Origin: Tuwongella immobilis
Lineage (GTDB): Bacteria > Planctomycetota > Planctomycetia > Gemmatales > Gemmataceae
Assembly: GCF_901538355.1 (NCBI RefSeq)
Contig: NZ_LR593887.1
Location: 2,518,920 to 2,582,919, forward strand
Reading direction: 5' to 3'
Length of the DNA: 64,000 nucleotides
Shown here: one piece after another, positions 42,651-49,593 of the stretch
Position numbering within the stretch: position 1 is the stretch's first letter
How the letters are laid out: the number at the start of each line of letters is the position of its first letter
The notes under the pieces: generated by a model
The model's database searches: none
Told to the model about the DNA's origin: nothing
The model's input: the letters and a program-made list of their open reading frames with translations, nothing else
Translations under genes and position numbers: made by a program

Positions 42651-43949
42651 TTAATCGTGTCGCAACGCCTCGATCGGGTCGAGTTTCGCGGCTCGTTGGG
42701 CGGGATACAGACCGAATAAGACACCCACACCAATCGAGACGATCACCGAGATAAAGATCGATGGCACATGGACTTTCGCCTGGAGTGGCACCTCGAACAG
42801 CGCGAGCGACAACCAGGGGACGATGTACGTCATCGACAATCCGACGACGACACCGGCGAGACCTCCGACGCTCGTTTGGACGACAGCTTCCACCAAAAAT
42901 TGCGTGGTAATATCGCGCCGTTTCGCTCCCAATGCCCGACGGATGCCGATTTCTCGCGTTCGCTCGGTCACCGTGGCGAGCATGATATTCATGATGCCAA
43001 TGCCACCAACCACCAGCGAAATACTGGCGATGAGTACCAGAAGCCGGGTAAAGCGATTCTTCGTCCGCTCGGCTTCTTCCAGTCGATCCAGCGGGACGGT
43101 GATGAGCCAATCTTTCTTGAGGTGCGATCGTTCCAAATAGCTTTTGATCTGTTCGCCGGCAGAGCGGACTTGGTCGAGATCGCCCACGGTGATGGTGATC
43201 TGCGAGAGTTCCACTTGTTCCGCGCTTCGGGAGCCAGCGGATCGCTGCATGATGCGGTCGCCGATCCACGCGCGGCAGGTCTTCAACGGGATGTAAACAT
43301 CGTCGTTGAAATCTTCCGCCGCTTGCGAACCGCCCGAACCACCCGTGGGCATCCGATTCTTCAGCACGCCAATGACTTGATAATTGTTGCGGCCAATGTT
43401 GATTTGTTGGCCAATGGGGTCTTCGAACGGGAATAATGCATCGGCGGTTCCTGATCCAAGCACCGCGTAATTTTGCAAATTCTCGTTATCATCTTCCGAG
43501 AGAAACCGCCCGGCAATCAATTCCAGTTGATTCACTTCGGCATATTTTTCGGTCGTCCCCACGACGCGCCCGTTGTGCCGTCGCTCGTAATGGCGAATCT
43601 CCTGATTGAACACGCGCATGGGCACCATGCGTTGCAGCGTATCGCCCAAGTAACTGCGGAGCGCTTCTTCGTCTTCGTAGGTCAGGCCGTATTTGGCGAT
43701 CCACGAGACGGATTGCCCCATCGCGTTGTCCGCTGGTTTGACACTGCGGACAATGATATTCGTCGCCCCTTGTCGGCGAATATCTTCCAATGCGTCTTGC
43801 ATGCTCCCTTCGCCGAACGCCATCAGGGCGATCACCGCCGAGGTGCCGATGACGATCCCCAAAACGGAGAGTGCCGCTCGAAGTTTGTGAAGCCACAAAC
43901 TCCGAATCGCCAGCATAAAACTCCGTTGGATTTGATCCATATTCAGCAT
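42651..43949 (-). CDS. MacB/FtsX-type ABC transporter permease
   Basis: 432 aa. An N-terminal membrane helix (LHKLRAALSVLGIVIGTSAVIALMAF in part, about residues 20-44) is followed by a large periplasmic MacB_PCD domain (about 50-270) and three C-terminal helices in the FtsX domain (about 300-425), including GGIGIMNIMLATVTERTREIGIRRALG, which is the coupling-helix region. This matches MacB or LolC/E-type permeases without fused ATPase. Cytosolic ATPase subunit is encoded by the gene upstream (25 bp). ATG 43940 is an alternative start. Last gene of the tripartite efflux operon. Confidence 0.93.
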   Translation of the reverse strand: MLNMDQIQRSFMLAIRSLWLHKLRAALSVLGIVIGTSAVIALMAFGEGSMQDALEDIRRQGATNIIVRSVKPADNAMGQSVSWIAKYGLTYEDEEALRSYLGDTLQRMVPMRVFNQEIRHYERRHNGRVVGTTEKYAEVNQLELIAGRFLSEDDNENLQNYAVLGSGTADALFPFEDPIGQQINIGRNNYQVIGVLKNRMPTGGSGGSQAAEDFNDDVYIPLKTCRAWIGDRIMQRSAGSRSAEQVELSQITITVGDLDQVRSAGEQIKSYLERSHLKKDWLITVPLDRLEEAERTKNRFTRLLVLIASISLVVGGIGIMNIMLATVTERTREIGIRRALGAKRRDITTQFLVEAVVQTSVGGLAGVVVGLSMTYIVPWLSLALFEVPLQAKVHVPSIFISVIVSIGVGVLFGLYPAQRAAKLDPIEALRHD

Positions 43950-43974: not shown

Positions 43975-44706
43975 TTAAACGGCCAAATCCGCGGCTTTAT
44001 ATTGGGATAATCCCTTGGGGTGGGCATTGCGTTCATCGGTTTCGATGCGCCCATCTCGCAGTCGGATCACCCGCTTGGCCCACTCGGCAATATCATTTTC
44101 GTGAGTCACCATAATGATGGTTTTGCCGATGCGGTTTAATTCGGTGAGCATTTGCATGATTTCGACACTGGTGCGCGTGTCGAGGTTCCCGGTTGGTTCA
44201 TCGGCGAGGATTACCTGCGGATCATTCACCAGCGCCCGCGCAATGGCAACCCGCTGCTGTTGCCCACCGGAAAGCTGCATGGGACGGTGATCGAGGCGTT
44301 GCCCCAGCCCCACCATTTGAGCAAGTTTCACGCAGCGATCGGTCGTCGCTTCTGAAAGTTTGGTACCCTGATAGATTAACGGCAGTTCGATATTCTCTAC
44401 CACGGTATATTGCGGCAGCAGATTATACGACTGGAAGATAAACCCGAGATATCGGGAGCGGACATCCGACAGCCGATCATCATCCATCTCGGAGACGTTG
44501 ACATCTCCGAGAAAATAATTGCCGCTCGTGGGGCGATCCAAACAGCCCAAAATGTTCAACAGGGTCGACTTCCCGGAACCAGATGGGCCCATCAAAGCGA
44601 TAAAATCGCCTTCCTCGAATGTGAGGTTGAGCCCTTTGAGAACCGTGAGGGTTGTACCCAACTGATAACATTTCACCAGATCTTCGACACGAGCCACTGC
44701 CGGCAT
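43975..44706 (-). CDS. ABC transporter ATP-binding protein, LolD/MacB-like
   Basis: 243 aa. Walker A GPSGSGKS at residues 40-47, signature [15 protein letters not shown] at about 145-159, Walker [11 protein letters not shown] at about 165-174, H-loop VTHENDIA. It therefore is the ATPase of a MacB/LolD-type exporter, in which the ATPase pairs with a 4-TM permease, here encoded 25 bp downstream. The neighbouring HlyD-like adaptor and TolC-like lipoprotein complete a tripartite pump. Start ATG at 44706 is the first in frame, 20 bp after the HlyD-like gene. Confidence 0.95.
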
Positions 44707-44726: not shown

Positions 44727-46874
44727 TTATTCGGCTTTGCCCGGTCCGCGATTTTTGCCGGCTGCTCCCGATGCGCCGTCGGCTGGTCCGCCGCTTCCGG
44801 GGGCACCGCCGGGGCCGCGCGGTCCCTTGCCGTCTTTGCCGCCCTTCGGACCGCCTTCGCCACCGCGTCCCATGCCGGACTTGCTCATGGCGGGGGCTTC
44901 TTGATCGCGGGTTCGGGTGCCGTCGCTGACCAGAACGCTCGGGTTCAGAATCACCTGATCGCCTTCGTTCAGCCCGCTGCGAATTTCCACTTGGGTGGCG
45001 TTGCTCAGGCCAATTTCGATGGTGCGTTCTTCGGGGCCATTGGGTGTCATCACGAAGCAGCGTCGCGTGTTGCCCATTTCGACACCGCCCACGACGGCCA
45101 CGGTCGGCAGCAGCAACACGTTCACGAGTGGATCTTCGATTTTGATGACCACTTCGGCACTCATTCCCGGCTTCAAACCGGGCAGCGACTCATCGATTTC
45201 AATGAGCGTTTGAAACATCTTGACTTCGGGCGTCATGAAATCTTGCGTGGCAACGGTCGCCACCGATTTCACATGCGCTTTGAGTGCGCGGTTGGGGAAC
45301 GCCTCAATCTTGACCGTGGCCGGTTGACCATCCGCCACTTTCAACAAATCTTGTGCCCGAAATTGCTCGCGCAGAACAAGCATGACCGTTTCTGAAGACG
45401 GGATGCTGGGGACCGTCATTGCCGGAATCAGCGGATTCATGAACGCTTGTTGGAGTTGGGTCAGACCTTCCGAGAAGCCCGTGGGCCGCCACACTTCGCC
45501 ACGCAGGTTCATCACCATCGATTCATGCACACGCATGTTGACGAGCATGTGATTCAGATCGGGAATCCGAATCATCTTTTGTCCTTCGCGGACAAATTCA
45601 CCTTGGGCGATGATCGATTGTTGATTCCCGCCGCCGAACCGCACCTGTTCGGGCACATAGTAGACCACCATGCCCGCTTGCGGAGAGTACAACGTGCATT
45701 CGGCGATTTGGGCATCGATTTCCTGAATCTTGGTCAATTCTTGTTCGAAGATCGATTTCTTGGTGATGCGATCGCTGTCGGCTTTCGCTTCTTTGGCTTT
45801 GGCTTGCGCTATGGTGCGTTCCAAGGCGCGTTTGGCTTCGATGAGTTTGTTCTTGAGTTCGGTTTCCATGCGGCGCTTGGTGAAGACTTGCAGCACTTCC
45901 GATTCCATCTGCAATTTCTTCAGCGTTTCCCGCGAGCTTTCCAATCGGGAACGCTCCGCATTCGCTTGGCTGGGGGTCAGATATCCCTTCTTGACCATCC
46001 GTTCGGACCAGGCAGCACGCTCCAGCAGCATCTCGACATCCGATTCTGCGAGACGGAGTCGGCCGCTGACATCGTCCAGCAATTGGCGATACTCGCCTTT
46101 GGCGGGAACGCGCTTTTCCAGATCCAACGTCAGGAGTTCCTCGATCGACATTTTTTCGACGGAGTCGCGAGGCAACCCGGTGTACTTTTCCAGATCCAAC
46201 GCGGCGAGACTGATCGTGACGCGTGCTGTTTCGATATCCGAAAAGTTCTGGTTGACGACGATGCGATATTCTTCAACGGCTTGGGTGTATGCGGCTTGGG
46301 CGGTGTCGAGCGTGATTTGCTGAGCGCGGCGTTCATCTTCCAGTGCCGATGAATCCAGCTCCATCACCTTCTGACCGGCTTTGACTTCGGTGCCATCATC
46401 AATCACCCATTTGATGGTGGAAGCACCGCTGCCTCCGCGAGCGCCGGCTTTGACGCGGCAAACGATGTCGCGATTGCTGGAGGATTCCAGCGCACCCCGC
46501 TGTACGATGGACACTTGGAGAGTACCGCGTTCCAGCGTGTGCAGGATGAGCTTTTTCGGATCGGTGCTGGCATCGAGCAGGAACGTTTTTGCGGCAAATC
46601 CACCGCCTGCCAGGATCAGCATCCCGGCGGCGATGGTCAGCCAGCGGCGGCGGCGGTTACGACCCGCTTGGGACGCGGGGGGTTGCGATGACGCCGTAGG
46701 GCGAGCCGACGTTGACGGGCCGGAGCCCGTTGGCAGGGGCGGAATCGAAGCGAGGTTGATTCCCGGCATCATCGACGCGGGGCTGGTTGGCTCCATCGGC
46801 GATTGGGCCGGAGAGGACTCCGGGTGGGAGGGGTGCGGGGCCGTTGGGGGCACATTCGCAGGAGAGTTGTTCAT
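44727..46874 (-). CDS. HlyD-like efflux periplasmic adaptor protein
   Basis: 715 aa from ATG 46874, chosen because GAGGAG lies 9 bp upstream. A Pro/Ser-rich cytosolic tail (about residues 1-70) precedes an RRRRWLTIAAGMLILAGGGF anchor. Next come a biotinyl-lipoyl-like beta-domain, a long coiled-coil hairpin (about 150-370) and a barrel-sandwich and beta-barrel half. The C-terminus is disordered and rich in Gly, Lys and Pro (KGGKDGKGPRGPGGAPGSGG). This is the membrane-fusion protein of a MacAB/TolC-type system. The first 218 bp overlap the upstream TolC-like gene in another frame. Probably exports peptides, lipids or antibiotics; substrate unknown. Confidence 0.9.
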   Translation of the reverse strand: MNNSPANVPPTAPHPSHPESSPAQSPMEPTSPASMMPGINLASIPPLPTGSGPSTSARPTASSQPPASQAGRNRRRRWLTIAAGMLILAGGGFAAKTFLLDASTDPKKLILHTLERGTLQVSIVQRGALESSSNRDIVCRVKAGARGGSGASTIKWVIDDGTEVKAGQKVMELDSSALEDERRAQQITLDTAQAAYTQAVEEYRIVVNQNFSDIETARVTISLAALDLEKYTGLPRDSVEKMSIEELLTLDLEKRVPAKGEYRQLLDDVSGRLRLAESDVEMLLERAAWSERMVKKGYLTPSQANAERSRLESSRETLKKLQMESEVLQVFTKRRMETELKNKLIEAKRALERTIAQAKAKEAKADSDRITKKSIFEQELTKIQEIDAQIAECTLYSPQAGMVVYYVPEQVRFGGGNQQSIIAQGEFVREGQKMIRIPDLNHMLVNMRVHESMVMNLRGEVWRPTGFSEGLTQLQQAFMNPLIPAMTVPSIPSSETVMLVLREQFRAQDLLKVADGQPATVKIEAFPNRALKAHVKSVATVATQDFMTPEVKMFQTLIEIDESLPGLKPGMSAEVVIKIEDPLVNVLLLPTVAVVGGVEMGNTRRCFVMTPNGPEERTIEIGLSNATQVEIRSGLNEGDQVILNPSVLVSDGTRTRDQEAPAMSKSGMGRGGEGGPKGGKDGKGPRGPGGAPGSGGPADGASGAAGKNRGPGKAE

Positions 46875-49593
46875 CGATCCACGCTCCTCGGGCATCCAGG
46901 GGCAGCAGTTCCAGATCGCGGTAGAGCTGCAATCGGACTACCTGGTAATTGATCCAAACGGTGTACAAGGCATTCTGGGCTTGTGGCAGCGATCGTTGGG
47001 CATTGAGCAACTGTTGCGTTAATGCGGCGGCGTTGCCCGCTCCGCTTCCCCCGCCCACACCAGTGCTACCCGGTAGGGGCGGTGCATTGAACACATCCAG
47101 CGAGTTTTCCACCTGGGAATACGCAAGTTCCAAGGCGCGTTGCTGAATTTGGTAATTCTCGGCGGCCACTCGAAGTTCCCGAAGTTCGGCTCGAACGGCA
47201 TTCAGAATGAAATCCTCCACGGCTTGCAAATTGCGACGTTGTCGTTGGAATGCAATCAAACCAATTCGATAGTTGTTCCGTTCCAGACGACGAACCAGGG
47301 GCAATTCACCGGACAAAATGAGCTGGTGGGTGGTGCGAGATCCCCCCAGGTCGAGCGGTTGGTTGGCATTCGCGGGTGTCGACGTTTCTGTATGATACCG
47401 CACATCCAGCACACCCATCAAGGCATTCGCACGAACTCGAATCAATCGCCAGGCATCGACCAACTGCGCCCGGGTGTTCATCAGGTCAAGCCGGTTGGTC
47501 AAGGCGGCTTGTGCCACCGCAGTTTGGGCGGTATCCAGATCCGCCTTCAGAAGATCAACACCGGAAACGCACAGCGGTGGCAACTTGGGCCATGCCTTGC
47601 GAATCTGCGACAGCCGTTCCGATCGCGCATCGCCAATGACGCGAATGATATCCGTTTGAACTTCCCGGAACAGACCAGCTCGAATCCGCGCTTGACGGTC
47701 TGGATTTTCCTTCAGCCAGGGGCGCTCTTGAAATCGTCGCAGCGATTGTTCCAATGACACATAGGCGAGATCGCGCTGGGTATTCGCAATTCCGGTTGTC
47801 AATTCGATCGGAATCGGTCGCTTTTGAATTTCCAGGTCCGTCTTCTGATCTAATAGACGACGGAGTTCGGCATTCCCATCAGTGAGAAATTTTTTCAGCT
47901 CATCCGGGGTCGAATTTTGATATCGGCCCAACAGCTCGGCAAACTGCTGACGAACGCTCGTGTCTTTGGTCAGCGGTGTCTCGGCCACCAATCGGAGTAG
48001 GGCATTGCGCAGTTCGGTGCCGTCTTCAATCTTGGAAAACGCGGCGACACTGGCGCGGGTTTCTTCGGCCTCGGCAAGCACCCGTTCGAGCCGTTCAATC
48101 TGATTCCGAATCGGCCGGATGGCGGTGTCATCCAACTCTAACGGTAAATCCGTTGGTACACCCAATTGTAGCTTGAAGAGATCCATTCCGTCCTGCAGAT
48201 TTCGCCGGGCGGTCAATAATGTCGATTCGGAACGCAGTAATTCTTGCTCAATCTGACCAACCTGCAATTCCGAAACATCACCACCTTCTTTGAAGGCTTC
48301 GAACAAATCCTGGAATCGGCCCAATGCTTTTCGGTTGGCTTCTTCATTTCGCGCAATCGCAGCACGCAACAGCACTTGCAGATATCCTAACCCCTGTGCG
48401 GTCAACGTCGGGCCGACCCCGCGCAGTGCCAAACCCGCGTAGCTGAACGGCGAATTGAACACATCGCCACCCGCGGCCACATACACGGCATGAATTTTTC
48501 GGAATCGCGCGAACGATCGCATGGCGTACAGCAGGTTGCGTTCCGCCTGGGTCAAGGGCTCCAGGGTGACGGCGAATCCACCGCCAGCGAGTAACGGCTG
48601 CGCCAATTCCAGCGACAGATTGGAGACGCTGACATCGGGTTTGCCGCCGCCCAATTCGATGACCAGTCGGTTGGCCATGCGTACCAGTAATTGTGCCCCG
48701 GTGGGGAACAATCGGTTCAGGCCGCTTTCGGTATCGGCAGTCCAACGATTGCCTGCGCCTTGGGTCGTCTCGCGTCCGGTTGCTTCGCGGACGGTGTTGC
48801 CGCGCGAGAAGAATTGGGCCGCGAATCCGAATCGCTCCAACGACACGGGCAGGGCGGCAAGGTACAAATCTTCGCGTCGGTCTTGGAATTCTCGACTATT
48901 GAATAATGCCAAGAATAAGGCTTGATCCAACTTCAAGCGATACGTTGGCTTATTGCTCGAAAGTGCTTTCTCGACGCTGGGTCGAACGGCGGCATCGTTG
49001 GTTTCCGGGTTGCTGGCGGGTGCCTGGAACGCCGCTTGTTGAATCCCGGAAGGAATCGCGGAAATCTGATCCCCCACCGCGCCGCCGTTGGGCTGTGGGG
49101 AGTTGGGCAGCATGGGGCCATTTGGCAGCATGGGGCCATTTGGCATCGCCGGATCATTCGGCTGGGCGGGCGAGGCGGGATCACCACCGGCCAACGGCGG
49201 TTCGACATCTTCCTGCCGATTCATGGCGTCCCAGGCGACGATCATCTGAAGATAGCCATCGCCTTCGATCAACCCCATCCCTGCTTTGCGCGGACCTTGC
49301 GGATTCGGGGAGAGCAGCCGCGCGGCCGCATCATCCGGCGGCATGGGCGGATGGTCCGGGTCGGTGGGGTCGGCGTAGCGGGCTTTCGGGTCGGGATAGA
49401 CGTTCCAATTTTGGACTTTCCATGCCGGCGAAACATCTTTCTCCCGAATCAGGTTGGCAACATCTTTGTCGGATGCTTCGCGGAAGAATCGCCGGGTACA
49501 CCCCACTGCCATGGCGAGCACTACCAGTGCCAGGGGCACCCAACGGCAGCGCGTGATCCATCGTTGCAGCGGGCTCATGGATCGCAATGGCAT
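46657..49593 (-). CDS. TolC-like outer-membrane efflux lipoprotein
   Basis: 978 aa, about twice the usual TolC length. A signal peptide with lipobox (LALVVLAMAVGC, Cys at residue 32) predicts a lipid-anchored protein. An N-terminal extension and a Pro/Asn-rich linker (about 140-190) precede the TolC region, which has the two helical-hairpin repeats. The C-terminal repeat ends NYQVVRLQLYRDLELLPLD, the typical OEP end. The last 70 residues are a Pro/Asn-rich tail, CECAPNGPAPLPPGVLSGP onwards. SD GGAGG sits 9 bp before ATG 49593. First gene of the efflux operon; its last 218 bp also encode the start of the adaptor. Confidence 0.88.
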   Translation of the reverse strand: MPLRSMSPLQRWITRCRWVPLALVVLAMAVGCTRRFFREASDKDVANLIREKDVSPAWKVQNWNVYPDPKARYADPTDPDHPPMPPDDAAARLLSPNPQGPRKAGMGLIEGDGYLQMIVAWDAMNRQEDVEPPLAGGDPASPAQPNDPAMPNGPMLPNGPMLPNSPQPNGGAVGDQISAIPSGIQQAAFQAPASNPETNDAAVRPSVEKALSSNKPTYRLKLDQALFLALFNSREFQDRREDLYLAALPVSLERFGFAAQFFSRGNTVREATGRETTQGAGNRWTADTESGLNRLFPTGAQLLVRMANRLVIELGGGKPDVSVSNLSLELAQPLLAGGGFAVTLEPLTQAERNLLYAMRSFARFRKIHAVYVAAGGDVFNSPFSYAGLALRGVGPTLTAQGLGYLQVLLRAAIARNEEANRKALGRFQDLFEAFKEGGDVSELQVGQIEQELLRSESTLLTARRNLQDGMDLFKLQLGVPTDLPLELDDTAIRPIRNQIERLERVLAEAEETRASVAAFSKIEDGTELRNALLRLVAETPLTKDTSVRQQFAELLGRYQNSTPDELKKFLTDGNAELRRLLDQKTDLEIQKRPIPIELTTGIANTQRDLAYVSLEQSLRRFQERPWLKENPDRQARIRAGLFREVQTDIIRVIGDARSERLSQIRKAWPKLPPLCVSGVDLLKADLDTAQTAVAQAALTNRLDLMNTRAQLVDAWRLIRVRANALMGVLDVRYHTETSTPANANQPLDLGGSRTTHQLILSGELPLVRRLERNNYRIGLIAFQRQRRNLQAVEDFILNAVRAELRELRVAAENYQIQQRALELAYSQVENSLDVFNAPPLPGSTGVGGGSGAGNAAALTQQLLNAQRSLPQAQNALYTVWINYQVVRLQLYRDLELLPLDARGAWIDEQLSCECAPNGPAPLPPGVLSGPIADGANQPRVDDAGNQPRFDSAPANGLRPVNVGSPYGVIATPRVPSGS

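Follow-up and report, generated by a model that had tools for sequence, protein, structure and literature searches.

Long overlaps between bacterial genes are often dismissed as errors of annotation or assembly. Long unidirectional overlaps in phase 1 are known in bacteria, and this is the usual phase of the long ones; in the parts of the surveys that we draw on here, such overlaps are treated statistically and are mostly ascribed to the loss of a start or a stop codon (PMC2542354, PMC3887535, PMC2174442). Closer overlaps are described for termination-reinitiation pairs, in which ATGA or TGATG is shared and the Shine-Dalgarno (SD) motif lies inside the upstream gene (PMC6728339, in part). In the rnpA-rpmH pair of Thermus (Feltens 2003, as related in part of PMC9841429), a single SD serves two AUGs, and one of the genes lies nested within the other.

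We analyzed a stretch of 64,000 nucleotides (the window) in which a tolC-like gene and a hlyD/macA-like gene overlap by 218 nt. As in the surveyed long overlaps, the two genes are on the same strand and the downstream gene is shifted by one. Unlike those overlaps, as far as the cited parts of the surveys describe them, the start signal of the downstream gene falls within a conserved protein motif and is preserved from one family to the next. The tolC/hlyD junction shares with the termination-reinitiation pairs of the cited part an SD in the upstream gene and a likely coupling of the two genes. However, the distance from the hlyD start to the end of tolC is 35–422 nt over 77 junctions (218 nt in the window), which means that a ribosome terminating on tolC is not positioned at the hlyD start; in none of the 77 does the start coincide with the tolC stop or come within a few nt of it. 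The Thermus pair, as described in that part of the source, also has two bacterial proteins in overlapping frames of one strand, whereas here a C-terminal and an N-terminal tail overlap without nesting. What is known, then, is long same-strand overlaps in this phase, and what is unusual here is the depth of conservation and the start signal within a conserved protein motif. Judging from titles and the openings of abstracts, we recognized no published account of this overlap among the matches listed.

Our preferred reading, which we hold with good confidence, is that the junction belongs to a MacAB-TolC-like operon of four genes. In this reading, hlyD starts within tolC, the disordered tails of the two proteins are overprinted, and the two genes are probably coupled.

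The genes and their overlap

The contig that holds the window is the whole genome (6.69 Mb). The out-of-frame overlap, counted from the hlyD ATG (46874) through the last base of the tolC stop codon (46657), is exactly 218 nt (Table 1), as the first-pass annotation had it. The frames are shifted by one, so that base 1 of a TolC codon is base 3 of a HlyD codon (ss13, or “phase 1”). This places the junction in the class of long same-strand overlaps (different frames, at least 6 nt). Among 27 window genes, picked from the list of open reading frames, there were five other same-strand overlaps, and all of these were 4 nt.

Table 1. Features of the tolC-hlyD junction, in window coordinates.
Feature	Position	Strand	Details
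tolC-like outer-membrane efflux protein gene	46657..49593	(-)	978 aa; codons 907-978 within the overlap
hlyD/macA-like periplasmic adaptor gene	44727..46874	(-)	715 aa from the conserved ATG
hlyD-like ORF, longer version	44727-46895	(-)	from the first ATG; 46874 is the second ATG of the ORF
Overlap, 218 nt	46657..46874	(-)	HlyD residues 1-72 and TolC residues 907-978
tolC codons for DARGAWIDE	46870..46896	(-)	residues 900-908; conserved motif that would conceal the hlyD start signals
Shine-Dalgarno-like GAGGAG	46884..46889	(-)	9 nt before the hlyD ATG
Conserved hlyD ATG	46872..46874	(-)	AT from the end of the Asp907 codon (bases 2-3), G from base 1 of Glu908
Other in-frame ATG	46893..46895	(-)	21 nt upstream; in some relatives only; judged not to be the main start
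Predicted HlyD membrane helix	46572..46652	(-)	residues 75-101; starts 4 nt past the tolC stop codon
ABC transporter ATPase gene, third in the likely operon	43975..44706	(-)	Pfam ABC_tran 2.2e-32
MacB-like permease gene, fourth and last in the likely operon	42651..43949	(-)	Pfam MacB_PCD 2e-36, FtsX 1.4e-22

With the gene layout of MacAB-TolC from E. coli as the contrast, the arrangement in the window differs in that the ATPase and the permease are separate genes and in that tolC precedes and overlaps the adaptor gene. HlyD also differs, by a predicted disordered N-tail of about 73 residues. The likeness to the E. coli system (PDB 5nik, 9qgy) lies in the adaptor fold, the MacB-like permease and ATPase, and the TolC-fold partner.

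All 16 aligned TolC members match Pfam OEP at E <= 1 (best 8.4e-11), and the window TolC alone matches at E = 0.0014, which is under the curated cut-off. The AlphaFold2 model of this TolC resembles E. coli TolC and OprM (best Foldseek E = 1.7e-10); this fold search did better than a sequence search of solved structures, which gave chance-level matches only. HlyD matches Pfam HlyD_D23 and HlyD_3, and the first match to its model is MacA of MacAB-TolC (Foldseek E = 7.5e-21). The operon thus has a TolC-fold protein, a MacA-type adaptor, and a MacB-type ATPase and permease (in two genes). We call it MacAB-TolC-“like” because the NCBIfam equivalog cut-offs for MacA (HlyD scored 42 of the 342 bits) and for MacB (966 bits, missed by both the ATPase and the permease) were not reached.

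The low complexity that had been noted for both overlapping tails was borne out, and both tails are also predicted to be disordered: all of TolC residues 898–978 and nearly all of HlyD residues 1–73 have pLDDT under 50. Because of this predicted disorder, the shared DNA would code for two tails that are able to tolerate the overlap. (TolC also has a low-complexity part near its N terminus, with short PNGPM/LPNGPM repeats at residues 150–171, window positions 49081–49146 on the minus strand.)

Conservation of the overlap and evidence for constraint on the two frames

We searched 59 genomes of relatives (the window's own genome included), 95 from the family, and 297 from the class (the last with two different queries), and we analyzed the genomes with a match among the matches listed. 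Stop-to-stop open reading frames were scored with profiles and de-duplicated, which gave 96 junctions in 95 genomes among the matches listed. Of these 96, our order-level set (the window's order, families f1 and f2) accounts for 83, each from a different genome, spread over 36 genera and with the window included; its named matches are mostly Gemmataceae/Gemmatales. Several counts use one genome per genus (n = 35 genera). Five order-level loci are without a pair (L030 and L083, at contig ends, and L080, L092, and L093). We left out a split-ORF row for L073 and another for L120, as well as L069 and L072, which are outside the order, and L164 and L166 of f4, for which no hlyD was found in the stretch examined.

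All 83 order-level junctions with adjacent genes, among the matches listed, overlap in one phase (length of 2 modulo 3). Measured from the ATG that was found by pattern (77 junctions), the overlaps range from 35 to 422 nt, with a median of 116. The same phase is seen, among the matches listed, in 31/31 junctions of f3 (95–182 nt from the start) and in 30/30 junctions of f4 (32 loci; open overlaps of 98–590 nt). Relatives with non-overlapping genes, which the first-pass annotation would have taken as refuting its reading, were found outside the order, where a long overlap in this phase is lacking from 4/4 junctions of f5–f7 among the matches listed: for L063 a 4-nt overlap is possible, and L064, L065, and L068 are gapped. 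(L065, of f7, is a weak outgroup because the C terminus of its TolC is odd and may be frameshifted.) Inside the order there was one such member, G095, with a gap of about 0.7 kb; this locus was not added to the junction counts.

We compared the closest pair of genomes in each of 13 genera of the order. At TolC third positions, divergence was 0.156 in the overlap versus 0.247 before it (lower in 10 of 13 genera, Wilcoxon p = 0.016), and at HlyD third positions it was 0.124 in the overlap versus 0.293 behind it (lower in 11 of 13 genera, p = 0.0009). A simple count in the style of OLGenie, over 23 disjoint close pairs from the same 13 genera, gave rates in the overlap of 0.151 for dNN, 0.266 for dSN, and 0.275 for dNS. 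For TolC, dNN/dSN was 0.57 (bootstrap interval 0.44–0.72), as compared to 1.19 (1.06–1.36) in the same pseudo-frame behind the overlap; because the ratio is so far under this control, it is clear that the TolC frame is constrained within the overlap. For HlyD, dNN/dNS was 0.55 (0.41–0.71) versus 0.74 (0.68–0.82) before the overlap, and the intervals slightly overlap, so this ratio is suggestive. Constraint on the HlyD frame is further supported by its being open in 35/35 genera, when 24.3 would be expected if the TolC protein alone were kept (probability product 10^-8.2). Overall, the HlyD frame is probably constrained as well, and the evidence for coding constraint is clear for TolC and moderate for HlyD.

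One of the 13 closest pairs, G062 and G063 (L048 and L051), is not a clean comparison because HlyD is far more diverged than TolC. They differ at 26/901 aligned sites in TolC, at 0/107 in the overlap, and at 14–34% of sites in the HlyD core, depending on codon position, as if there were a recombination boundary near the gene junction.

The strongest alternative is that HlyD alone is functional in the overlap and that the TolC tail is a neutral run-on to the next chance stop. We found no support for selection on the length of the TolC tail: across the 35 genera, the lengths are as expected by chance given HlyD (sum of log10 p = -17.88; Fisher p = 0.15). The length and the sequence of the tail vary widely, and in several f4 genomes the open TolC frame crosses the HlyD membrane helix (as read by eye). 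The low dNN/dSN of TolC relative to the control speaks against a neutral tail, as does the slower change of HlyD third-position sites within the overlap. Furthermore, a motif of the ERLPxP type, [ED][RQ][LI]PxP, is present in the TolC tail at 36/80 junctions and in 13/35 genus representatives, versus 0.44 expected if HlyD alone were kept, although this motif was chosen after inspecting the data. The motif is absent from the TolC tail of the window. Given these results, we view a neutral tail as unlikely, and we prefer the reading in which both frames are under constraint. In a separate observation, the open TolC frame of L011 (G004) extends 422 nt past the hlyD start, across the region of the HlyD membrane helix.

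The probable hlyD start within a tolC motif

In 80 of the 83 order-level junctions, the hlyD ATG is at one fixed position of a TolC motif, (L/I)DxRGxWxD(D/E); 77 of the 80 were found by pattern and three by eye (L003, L008, and L039). The first two letters of this ATG close an Asp (or Asn/Tyr) codon of tolC, and its G opens the codon that follows. The three exceptions have ACG instead, and two of them (L081 and L082) have a GTG one codon earlier, while L058 has neither. In 16 aligned sequences, D900, G903, and W905 are invariant, and R902 and D907 are nearly so.

GGA and GAT are heavily favored in the codons for this motif. The Gly of the motif is GGA in 49/80 junctions, as compared to 10.2 expected from the rest of the same tolC genes, and the Asp is GAT in 70/73 versus 29.0 expected. 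With one genome per genus, GGA is found in 30/35 (5.5 expected) and GAT in 31/31 (13.9 expected). At 15 to 10 nt upstream of the ATG, the SD block is GAGGAG in 21/35 genera; GGAG is found within the block in 28/35 genera and is absent in 7/35. In the window, the region of the SD block reads CCCGAGGAGCGTGGATCGATG. For comparison, 13/27 of the picked window genes have an SD-like tetramer within about 20 nt, versus 9% of random 20-mers. In f3, a GGGAGG is concealed in the codons for (Y/F)DEWEA in 31/31 junctions, at the same aligned codons as the SD of the order. The f3 start is GTG (23 cases) or ATG (8 cases) and is one codon earlier than the Gemmatales start (from an ungapped alignment of the motif, read by eye).

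Three tolC genes without an adjacent hlyD provide a small natural control. G095 and G099 keep RGVW but have the codons CGG GGT ... GAG GAG and CGC GGC ... GAC GAG, respectively; in both, the site has neither an SD block nor an ATG. (For G099, there is no hlyD in the 0.4 kb of contig behind tolC.) In G035, whose tolC is not followed by this hlyD, GAT GAA (and so the ATG) is kept, but the preceding codons are CGC GGG. By their codons, two of the three would fit the idea of a hidden start, and one would fit it partly.

Alternatively, the true HlyD start could be a later Met (46772, 46769, or about 46622), which would leave a real but shorter overlap or none. These Met codons are present in frame in the window, and the starts within the overlap would leave 239, 218, 197 (GTG), 140, 116, or 113 nt. 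It had been claimed that the closest possible start, at about 46772, still left about 115 bp of overlap. This was nearly right, and the difference is trivial: the nearest start within the overlap is at about 46769. The claim overlooked in-frame Met85 (about 46622), which would avoid the overlap and would cut the predicted helix at residues 75–101. The ATG at 46874 is the one that is conserved in 80/83 junctions, with the SD at a fixed spacing, and both the codon bias and the openness of the HlyD frame favor it. We rejected the later starts, which are not the conserved start, as improbable. The early HlyD start should be retained when annotating such planctomycete genomes.

Another alternative is that a programmed ribosomal frameshift produces a TolC-HlyD fusion, since there is an SD-like block within the coding region and the +1 frame is open. 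We rejected this as very improbable because hlyD has its own SD and its own ATG at the right spacing; HlyD also has its own membrane helix, and the hlyD frame is open upstream of the ATG for a median of 30 nt and at most 111 nt (77 junctions). Finally, the first-pass annotation had raised an assembly error, that is, a frameshift that creates an artificial overlap, and although many of the relatives are draft genomes, this is hardly credible and is ruled out by conservation: 82 other genomes of the order have the same junction in the same phase, as do all of the f3 and f4 junctions, and the start falls in the same codons in 80/83. Comparison with these relatives confirms that the 218-nt overlap is real.

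A probable hidden start that may couple the pump genes

Under our preferred reading, the order in the operon would be tolC, hlyD/macA, the ATPase gene, and the gene for the MacB-like permease, and we infer that the four genes are on one transcript. The tolC codons for RGxWxD(D/E) would also contain the ribosome-binding site and ATG of hlyD. Some ribosomes would traverse this site in the course of translating tolC, and others would initiate hlyD there, in the +1 frame, before the tolC stop. Given how far the hlyD start precedes the tolC stop, reinitiation after termination there is unlikely, and most simply hlyD would be translated by internal initiation at an exposed SD. Synthesis of the adaptor would thereby be tied to that of the outer-membrane channel. 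The shared stretch would code for the N-tail of HlyD, on the cytoplasmic side, together with the C-tail of TolC. This modifies the overprinting that had been suggested originally: HlyD would be read through from a nearly fixed start, while the tolC stop is variable and would drift to the next chance stop in its frame, leaving a tail that is under purifying selection and that, in some genera, carries the ERLPxP-type motif. The translation of both tails, the coupling, the stoichiometry, and any function of the tails are likewise inferred.

If passing ribosomes couple the two genes, then pairing of the SD with downstream RNA might be relevant. For the order, this pairing was 0.567 versus 0.481 in codon shuffles (Wilcoxon p = 0.007; p = 0.32 if combined per genus). 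For f3, it was 0.752 versus 0.567, but the members are closely related. The slight excess is a small effect that would fit coupling by passing ribosomes. Folding energy at the start was not unusual in four of the five stretches tested. The case for a conserved RNA structure at the hlyD start is weak at best.

A broader and doubtful possibility, which we offer tentatively, is that RGVWIDE and the DEWEA of f3 are one concealed ribosome-binding site, kept at a nearly fixed place in f1–f3 despite the change in amino acids; that overprinting has repeatedly made disordered TolC tails, some of which were recruited via ERLPxP; and that nucleotides common to both genes thereby link two partner proteins of one pump.

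The junction, whose start is fixed and whose SD codons are hidden over 35 genera, with constraint on both frames measured in 13 of them and with natural cases of separated genes, would be a clean test system for how a gene carries the start signal of its neighbor and for the emergence of new disordered tails from DNA that two genes share.

Two other loci are worth describing. In a tree of HlyD, the non-overlapping genes of f5 and f6 join f3, and the hlyD of G001 (L109) joins f4; the tree would fit one origin of the overlap as well as several. G001 is a genome of the same family, and its hlyD might have been transferred or might belong to an old paralogous operon. At L080 (in G035), hlyD has no recognized tolC before it, and the tolC of G035 is about 3 kb away on the opposite strand; upstream of the likely start, the frame of this hlyD retains EEYGSM, as in relatives with the hidden SD and start.
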